In this document: piece by piece, positions 62,846-64,000 of the stretch
How the letters are laid out: every line of letters begins with the position of its first letter
Numbering within the stretch: the first letter of the stretch is position 1
Source of the DNA: Paucilactobacillus suebicus DSM 5007 = KCTC 3549
Lineage (GTDB): Bacteria; Bacillota; Bacilli; Lactobacillales; Lactobacillaceae
Direction: 5' to 3'
Length of the DNA: 64,000 nt
NCBI RefSeq assembly: GCF_001434475.1
Contig: NZ_AZGF01000007.1
Coordinates: 1 to 64,000, forward strand
The notes under the pieces: model-generated
What the model was told of the DNA's origin: nothing
Databases searched by the model: none
The model's input: the letters and a program-made list of their open reading frames with translations, nothing else
Program-made: the position numbers and the translations under genes

Positions 62846-63049
62846 TTAAAAATCTCCTAACAATTATTACTAATATTCATTCTACAGCAAAATTATTCTA
62901 CCGATAAAAAATTTAGCTCTTAAATTAATAATATTTTAGATCCTACTCGTAAATTTATTATCGCTGTCGTATCAACAAATTGATGTATACAAATGAATTA
63001 ATTGCACGTATCAATTAAATGCAATTATAAATATATCTGCTTTTGATAG
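62846..63049. other. AT-rich intergenic DNA, nothing recognised
   Basis: No gene, riboswitch or repeat seen. It holds the promoter of the unknown gene on the minus strand. Confidence 0.4.
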
Positions 63050-63078
63050 TTGACTTTACCTGCAATAGTCCTTAAAGT
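63050..63078 (+). promoter_or_regulatory. Promoter of the T-box-controlled hydratase gene
   Basis: -35 TTGACT (63050-63055), 17 bp spacer, -10 TAAAGT (63073-63078), about 20-25 nt before the first T-box stem. Confidence 0.65.
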
Positions 63079-63099
63079 AAAAGCATATTAAAATTAAAT

Positions 63100-63360
63100 G
63101 AGAAATACGTTGATTAGGTTAGTAGCCTAACGGATTACGCAAAGAGAGCCTTCATTTGAGTGAAAGAAGGACGAGTTCGTTAGTTGAAGATCTCCTATGA
63201 GTGCATCTCTTCATTAAATTGATAAGATGCTGGCCACCCCATTACAGGTGATTGATATTATATATAGATAAAATCAATCTGAGACGTCATCAGAGATGAT
63301 GATGTGAATCAAGGTGGTAACACGTTCAAGACGTCCTTCATAAGGCGTCTTTTTTTGTTT
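63100..63360 (+). promoter_or_regulatory. T-box leader RNA with terminator
   Basis: A complete-looking T-box. Stem I (about 63115-63200) has paired TAGG/CCTA and CTAACG/CGTTAG segments around an AGTA S-turn motif (63121-63124), plus an AGAGAGCC apical arm. The specifier loop reads TTGAAGATCTCC: the standard TTGAA-codon spacing gives GAT (Asp); one base later reads ATC (Ile). The conserved T-box element AAGGTGGTAACACG is at 63311-63324, and the terminator AGACG..CGTCT with T tract at 63328-63357. An uncharged tRNA would stop the terminator forming. The UGGU end pairs best with discriminator A. Confidence 0.85.
63328..63357 (+). terminator. Intrinsic terminator of the T-box leader
   Basis: AGACGTCCTT and AAGGCGTCT pair with a single bulged base, followed by seven Ts; mutually exclusive with the T-box antiterminator. 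Confidence 0.85.
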
Positions 63361-63453
63361 CCATTTAATAATCCCATAAAAAGGAGGATAGATACAAATT
63401 TAGTACATAAGGTCTACATACATAGAAAATCATTTATTGGAGGAATACATATT

Positions 63454-64000
63454 ATGACAAATACCTTAGGAAACTTAACAGAAAAAGAAAACAGATTCGC
63501 TCAAACACTTTTTGACGCACTTCAAAGTCAGCATAAACTCACAGAAAGTAATTACGCTAACAATGTCACGGATGATGATTCGGCTTATCGTGTACAATAC
63601 AAACTCACTCAACTAAAAAACGAAAATGTTGGTGGATATAAAGTCAGCCTTACTAGTAAACAAACACAAGACATGTTTGACGCGGATTCACCTTTATATG
63701 GTGCTGAAGTTGATCACCAATGGTTGAAATCTCCAGCACAATTTCACTTGTCAGATTTAATGGAACCTCTCGTAGAAGTGGAATTGGTATTTACCGCTAC
63801 CGTTGATTTGTCACCAAACGATTCAACCAATGATCTGCTACGCAAGACAACAGTTGCTCCGGCCTTAGAAGTACCGGATGCTCGATTTTTGAATTGGTTT
63901 CCATCACTTTCAAAGCATATGGTAATGGCTGATAATGCGGTAGCTGGCCGTGTTGTATATGGTGAACAAAAAGATACGTCAAATATGAGTGTTGATAGTC
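63454..64000 (+). CDS. 2-keto-4-pentenoate hydratase/FAH-superfamily enzyme, truncated at the window edge
   Basis: The frame is open from ATG 63454 to the end of the window (182 codons visible, C-terminus missing). GGYKVSLTSKQTQDMF, EPLVEVELVF, ALEVPDARFLNWFP and MADNAVAGRVVYG match the MhpD/2-keto-4-pentenoate hydratase fold, with the ExE metal ligands in VEVEL. Relatives hydrate 2-oxo-dienoates or decarboxylate oxo-acids; the physiological substrate in lactobacilli is unclear. GGAGGA lies 9-10 nt before the ATG. A T-box leader controls it, so its expression should follow the charging of one tRNA. Confidence 0.8.
   Translation, partial: MTNTLGNLTEKENRFAQTLFDALQSQHKLTESNYANNVTDDDSAYRVQYKLTQLKNENVGGYKVSLTSKQTQDMFDADSPLYGAEVDHQWLKSPAQFHLSDLMEPLVEVELVFTATVDLSPNDSTNDLLRKTTVAPALEVPDARFLNWFPSLSKHMVMADNAVAGRVVYGEQKDTSNMSVDS

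Follow-up and report, generated by a model that had tools for sequence, protein, structure and literature searches.

The DNA analysed here, referred to below as the window, comprises positions 1 to 64,000 (forward strand) of contig NZ_AZGF01000007.1 from Paucilactobacillus suebicus DSM 5007 = KCTC 3549 (GCF_001434475.1), a draft assembly of 81 contigs. Towards its right end lies a T-box leader, followed by the beginning of a gene for a hydratase of the MhpD/HpcG family (Table 1). The presence of a full T-box leader, originally predicted from the letters of the sequence, was confirmed by a match to the full covariance model RF00230 (model positions 1–219; 91.7 bits, E 9.7e-21; cmscan of positions 62900–63500), and the same place was recovered in a scan of the whole genome (G000), which yielded 34 T-box matches. 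Since the Rfam gathering score for RF00230 is 93 bits and the window match is 1.3 bits short of it, a default gathering scan remains silent on this leader. An additional SNORD97 match in the scan of the leader was below cut-off and taken as chance.

Table 1. Features at the T-box/hydratase locus (positions of the window)
Feature	Position	Strand	Basis or remark
Promoter-like match TTGACT-17-TAAAGT	63050..63078	+	Motif match, chance-level number
T-box leader RF00230, stem I to antiterminator	63101..63341	+	Covariance-model match
Specifier triplet ATC (isoleucine)	63190..63192	+	Read in sequence, context GAA-G-AUC-U-CC
T-box/antiterminator, UGGU 63315-63318	63311..63338	+	Model alignment and folding
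Intrinsic terminator competing with antiterminator	63328..63357	+	Hairpin 63328-63351, then T's
Hydratase gene, MhpD/HpcG family	63454..64000, past window edge	+	Frame closes at contig position 64056

Reading of stem I revealed an AGUA / GAA loop-E motif with the specifier codon AUC, the T-box core containing the UGGU bulge reads AAGGTGGTAACACG, and the stem of the competing terminator hairpin was calculated at -9.6 kcal/mol. Full-model match, specifier-bearing stem I, UGGN bulge and competing terminator are all present, as in the transcription-terminating class of T-box leaders (RF00230), in which a stem I specifier, a UGGN bulge and an antiterminator/terminator pair precede an amino-acid-related gene. 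The T-box is ordinary in kind; the enzyme that it controls is not, an MhpD/HpcG-type hydratase being what sets this leader apart from others. Isoleucyl-tRNA synthetase (ileS, above the TIGR00392 cut-off) of the same genome is served by a separate T-box, at a distance of 16 kb from that of the hydratase. The leader had also been credited with a promoter of its own, but promoter-like matches occur in the stretch at chance level (5 found versus 5.3 expected), and the promoter is therefore not demonstrated. The only terminator-like site found by the scan of positions 62850 to 64000 is that of the T-box itself.

The hydratase gene is preceded by a Shine-Dalgarno sequence (GGAGG, 63439–63443). Its first 200 residues lack isoleucine, and its frame is broken approximately three quarters along, with the remaining family match located in another frame. 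Confined to the window copy, and compatible with the explanation favoured below, is the reading that an intact T-box was left over in front of a hydratase pseudogene in this strain. The frame break speaks for it, as do in-frame stops in three relatives (L049, L107, L117), whereas 77 of the 80 named relatives (the best 80 of 318 from a collection scan, a list which favours intact copies) are not shortened by such a stop and a one-base error is possible in an 81-contig draft; we give this reading somewhat less than even odds. Since broken copies (L049, L107, L117 and the window copy) occur in several species, the gene may be undergoing loss here and there. Extension to the right, where further operon genes might have followed, yielded a Spx-like gene (64425–64853) followed by convergent genes. 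No operon is therefore suggested at the window locus, and a pathway continuing past the window edge was rejected.

The open reading frame in the window matched HpaH/DmpE hydratase models (E 6e-16) and did not reach the equivalog cut-offs for MhpD, HpaH, DmpE and DmpH (best score, for the broken gene in two pieces, 58.7 versus 351.5 bits). A structure model was built from an intact relative (L034) in place of the window copy (alignment of 14 rows, pLDDT 94.2); it is closest to the HpcG and MhpD folds (TMq 0.83–0.88) at an identity of just 24–27 %. Four residues (K65, E110, E112 and E141) are invariant in the 14-row family alignment and represent the K, E-x-E and E positions of MhpD and HpcG (HpaH) of the FAH superfamily, to which a catalytic role is ascribed. 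By profile and fold the window gene belongs to the MhpD/HpcG hydratase family, in agreement with the original prediction of such a gene behind the T-box, and it may act as a hydratase. From MhpD and HpcG (HpaH) proper it is set apart by low identity, scores below the equivalog cut-offs, freedom from isoleucine and a T-box for tRNA-Ile. A hydratase for the breakdown of plant aromatics, similar to those of the MhpD/HpcG pathways, with a T-box in front of it by chance, would agree with the HpaH/DmpE model and HpcG/MhpD fold matches and with an MFS carrier in a G060 operon (see below) that is most like aromatic-acid symporters, albeit below cut-off; given scores so far below the equivalog cut-offs, and isoleucine control and isoleucine-freeness conserved over many genera, it is very unlikely.

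Of the 397 genomes from the host's family, 175 contain a match to the protein family, representing 25 of 40 genera. In a first sample, 12 of the 15 homologue loci scanned possess a T-box directly upstream; the remaining three are L045, a copy both divergent and broken, and the proteins L046 and L047 from another family within the order. Among the best 80 of 318 relatives, the T-box core motif was found by plain pattern in 72, and 78 gave an upstream, correctly oriented match to the stem-I model (weakest E 0.15). The specifier columns read ATC in all 78 stem-I rows of this set; as AUC leaders of the relatives went into the stem-I model, its scores lean towards such leaders, while the specifier triplets themselves are plain sequence. 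The two relatives lacking a stem-I match are L109, where Rfam identifies a T-box (69.4 bits), and L118, where the core motif is present within only 298 bases of upstream sequence. The most frequent neighbour family occurs at 24 of these best 80 loci. The two commonest ones (24/80 each; ABC-transporter-like and aminotransferase-like by eye) were rejected as partners and regarded as large families, because their distances and strands are scattered. In several Limosilactobacillus leaders the T-box core deviates from AGGTGGTACC, reading GGATGGTACCGCG/GTG in L100, L105, L113, L123 and L125 and GGCGGTACCGCGG in L066. In G060 (L135:1104-1342, minus strand; L180), the T-box hydratase is immediately followed by a further T-box with an apparent AUG specifier, located ahead of an aminotransferase gene. 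In Lactobacillus sp. Sy-1, too, a T-box whose specifier appears to be AUG is found a short way 3' of the hydratase (L084:6314-6423).

Isoleucine is absent from 75 of the best 80 (of 318) hydratases, including L049, L107 and L117 which are shortened by in-frame stops; three contain one isoleucine, one contains two and one three. The relatives' hydratases have an isoleucine share of 0.04 %, compared to 6.86 % in 464 flanking ORFs (at least 150 residues, overlaps kept), and for a single protein of 268 residues the chance of containing none at the background rate is 5e-9. The idea that base composition or the fold accounts for the absence is refuted by the counts and carries practically no weight: ATH triplets amount to 8 of 20,800 in the hydratase frame versus 1,136 and 1,175 of 20,720 each in the other two (5.5–5.7 %), and two homologues from another family in the order contain 15 and 22 isoleucines. 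The richness of the other frames in ATH triplets argues for selection at the level of the protein. That a protein of some 267 residues has stayed free of isoleucine throughout many genera marks selection by amino-acid starvation with unusual clarity, and this composition ties an uncharacterised enzyme to isoleucine through sequence alone.

A further sample comprised 30 loci from 26 genomes that were picked for low scores or two copies. Ten of these loci combine an upstream T-box (eight by Rfam, L136 and L137 by core motif) with an unbroken frame, and their proteins contain no isoleucine in eight cases, one in L162 and two in L139. Another 14 loci, a count which excludes six broken or cut copies (L148, L155, L158, L159, L160, L164), have no T-box (no Rfam match). 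Ten of the 14 (L145–L147, L149–L153, L157, L163) instead contain a leader peptide with a run of isoleucines, e.g., MNKQMTSQVNNTIINAIIII in L149 and MKNTSYKNSRIIISIIIIE in L145, and the hydratases behind these leaders contain 0, 0, 0, 0, 0, 0, 1, 4, 2 and 1 isoleucines (the four in L153). The four loci with neither T-box nor leader peptide (L143, L144, L154, L156) code for proteins with 5, 4, 5 and 9. In a tree of 51 proteins, in which long branches make some placements unsure, eight leader-peptide rows and L156 form one group of nine, the ninth leader-peptide row being a G060 paralogue. A Thr_leader Rfam match among the homologue loci was below cut-off and taken as chance. Leader-peptide attenuation operates in ilv, leu and his operons, and an attenuator peptide has reportedly been described in S. 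aureus. The ten loci resemble such systems in that a short ORF containing consecutive cognate codons precedes the gene; they differ from classical attenuation in that the peptide replaces a T-box in front of the same isoleucine-poor enzyme.

Several other genes behind AUC T-boxes code for proteins with few isoleucines. In G060 these are an amidohydrolase (4/395) followed by an OppA-like protein (10/546), an S9 peptidase (8/657) and a BrnQ-type carrier (17/465), in G035 a branched-chain aminotransferase (BCAT, 13/350), a BrnQ-type carrier (23/472) and a PanE-like protein (9/326), and in G008 a BrnQ-type carrier (15/462). Five Secundilactobacillus loci have a peptidase (PepI-like by eye; 312 residues, 221 in one cut copy) with 5–7 isoleucines behind an AUC T-box. 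A paralogue 57 % identical to the amidohydrolase (227/396 columns) has 13/393 isoleucines versus 4/395 in the T-box copy, and the upstream DNA examined contains no T-box core. BrnQ-type proteins under GUA (valine) T-boxes contain 62/481 and 59/458 isoleucines (family tested), and a candidate in G000 64/447, i.e., 13–14 % versus 3–5 % under isoleucine T-boxes; valine accounts for just 1–4 % of these Val-T-box paralogues. No sparing is apparent in the PanE-like protein L246 with an apparent AUU specifier (21/321 isoleucines), and the ileS proteins are not isoleucine-poor.

For the non-synthetase T-box genes of four genomes (synthetases set apart), with specifiers assigned by eye and isoleucine counts in view, the share of the cognate residue was 2.15 versus 7.08 % for Ile (11 genes), 3.25 versus 6.86 % for Val (4 genes), 0.84 versus 2.70 % for Met (29 genes), 0.87 versus 3.79 % for Tyr (5 genes), 0.46 versus 2.27 % for His (3 genes) and 0 versus 1.40 % for Trp (3 genes). 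The Val-class gene L015 shows no depletion (7.6 %). The test drew on 30 of 34 T-box matches of G000 and 30 of 37 of G060. Omitted for want of a clear specifier or gene were L003, L005, L029, L168, L176, L186, L192, L209, L217, L224 and L232, as well as L273, L281 and L297 (G038); L021 is the same gene as L024. None of 5000 label shuffles was equally low, with L246, outside the first class test, placed in the Ile class; the same held without the hydratases. In a genome from another family (G038), the specifiers of which were called by eye and blind to composition, Met was at 1.14 versus 2.88 % (13 genes) and His and Trp were both at 0 (one gene each), the depletion being weak for Val (5.76 versus 6.86 %) and Leu (7.14 versus 9.36 %; one gene each). 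The T-box regulons looked at thus seem depleted in the residue that their own T-box senses, with the isoleucine-free hydratase as the extreme case. If the rule holds widely, composition can serve to check specifier calls and help to assign unknown T-box targets. Low cognate bias, i.e., the avoidance of their own residue by the last enzymes of amino-acid biosynthesis, is described in PMC4209129, and the present case is similar in that proteins required under starvation shun the amino acid in short supply. Table 2 of that article gives no such bias in the last pathway enzymes for Ile, Val, Met, His and Tyr, whereas the T-box targets of these five amino acids are depleted, the hydratase to zero.

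Partners of the hydratase are encoded in other genomes. A paralogue preceded by an Ile-run leader is the first of five same-strand genes in G060 and G094, which code for the hydratase itself, an MFS carrier, an MDR reductase (quinone/crotonyl-CoA reductase-like, below cut-offs), a PanE-like protein (above the TIGR00745 cut-off) and a BCAT (above the TIGR01122 cut-off). All ten proteins are low in isoleucine (0.4–4.5 %; 208 of 308 residues counted for the G060 aminotransferase), and the operon was seen in a single genus (2 genomes). BCAT and PanE-like genes also lie under isoleucine T-boxes in G035. In two further genera the hydratase is located directly behind ilvE without a T-box of its own (L156 in G012; L154 in G184, where ilvE was identified through its similarity to the G012 gene); the starts of both copies, with 9 and 5 isoleucines, look damaged. 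An ilvD match is missing in 340 of the 397 genomes and in 121 of the 175 hydratase-bearing ones, and the enzyme therefore cannot simply be counted among those of the standard pathway. A function in place of the ilv pathway is unsupported, as the hydratase is found in 54 of 57 genomes with ilvD versus 121 of 340 without (Fisher 2e-18).

Taken together, we estimate at roughly 80 % the probability that a T-box for tRNA-Ile switches on an isoleucine-free enzyme when isoleucine is short, an enzyme most likely serving isoleucine supply. Judged from the anatomy of the leader and the mechanism of the T-box class, uncharged tRNA-Ile, paired to AUC in the specifier and to UGGU in the bulge, would hold the antiterminator, and the terminator would form in the presence of charged tRNA-Ile. 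The composition suggests that selection stripped the enzyme of isoleucine so that it could be translated at scarce isoleucyl-tRNA. Regulon and operon company point to a supply step, the hydratase family most likely feeding a branched 2-oxo acid to BCAT at times of isoleucine shortage. The amino-acid-linked function of the original prediction would thus stand, with isoleucine as the amino acid. Isoleucine-freeness and isoleucine control would suit any protein needed at low isoleucyl-tRNA, and no neighbour family exceeds 24 of the best 80 (of 318) loci, which would also fit an enzyme made during isoleucine starvation for another purpose, such as removal of a harmful 2-oxo acid or of an IleRS inhibitor, or some other starvation role. 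However, the other genes under isoleucine T-boxes are those for uptake, a peptidase and BCAT, one paralogue shares an operon with BCAT and two other copies follow ilvE, rendering a role apart from supply improbable.

For the favoured supply role, an undescribed route to isoleucine may tentatively be sketched, at rather less than an even chance: the hydratase would dehydrate or isomerise a beta-methyl 2-oxo acid, an MDR-type ene-reductase would form 3-methyl-2-oxopentanoate, and BCAT would convert the latter to isoleucine, the whole set being isoleucine-sparing as part of a general avoidance of the sensed residue in T-box regulons. A candidate substrate would be 4-hydroxy-3-methyl-2-oxopentanoate, which has one methyl group more than the known product of MhpD. 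If this is true, sparing would allow the entire set to be built when isoleucine is gone. The enzyme also gives grounds for testing whether these bacteria, many of which lack ilvD, have a new route to isoleucine. In a limited literature collection, T-box, leader peptide, isoleucine and Lactobacillus together led to work concerning S. aureus as well as deprivation of branched-chain amino acids. No paper was found there on T-box together with 2-keto-4-pentenoate hydratase, nor on T-box, isoleucine, Lactobacillus and hydratase combined, and none among the matches listed treats cognate bias and T-box together. None of the terms looked for occurs in the TBDB paper (PMC7778990), and L. acidophilus LBA1071 is listed as 'Ile related hypothetical' in PMC2494555.

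In 59 of the best 80 (of 318) relatives, a short ORF (uORF) with a strong ribosome-binding site is located between the T-box terminator and the gene, as called by a mechanical rule which set a wrong start in L067 and L069. The first 30 residues of the uORFs contain 13.7 % isoleucine, encoded by ATT in 203 of 237 codons, with MESVISSSNENPGQIQI and MKDSDISDISDI as typical starts. By the same rule, no such uORF exists in the leader of the window or in the named congeners L048–L051. In 28 of 54 loci, pairing between the ribosome-binding site of the uORF and a downstream element exceeds that of shuffles (p<0.05), with sequences on both sides differing between genera; the simple pairing test found nothing in Secundilactobacillus. 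According to folding of 53 loci, accessibility of the enzyme start is 0.34 for the free RNA, 0.45 with a ribosome stalled at the first isoleucine codon and 0.40 for the control (stalled versus control, p 0.004). Among the 8 Companilactobacillus loci tested, accessibility increases strongly in 7 and not at all in L098; in other genera the rise is mostly small. Both tests were run without L067, L069, L096, L116 and L126, and one more locus was dropped from the accessibility test by a length rule. Compared to leader-peptide attenuation, the isoleucine codons of the uORF are spaced and not in a run, and its ribosome-binding site appears to pair; compared to plain T-box leaders, an isoleucine-codon uORF follows the T-box in many relatives. 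Such a uORF with its sequestrable ribosome-binding site probably adds a second isoleucine-dependent lock in many genera.

A second AUC T-box of the G000 genome (G000:C56:83981-84224 onward; L128:1982-2610) is followed by a uORF beginning with MVAMKSDISDISQIRNLNQWAK, by CACATA repeats and by a terminator, so that only a leader peptide and no enzyme gene lies behind it. G-poor stretches rich in CACATAG / CACATATT repeats, which possibly represent Rho or RNA-binding sites, were observed between uORF and gene in leaders of Lenti- and Secundilactobacillus (L058, L059, L067, L071, L074–L076, L114, L117). In Companilactobacillus mishanensis (L062), a tandem unit of about 45 bases (beginning with cacttatgcagatgccaaaggcatctacgttccattgtagagg) is located between T-box and uORF, approximately 150–550 bases 5' of the gene.
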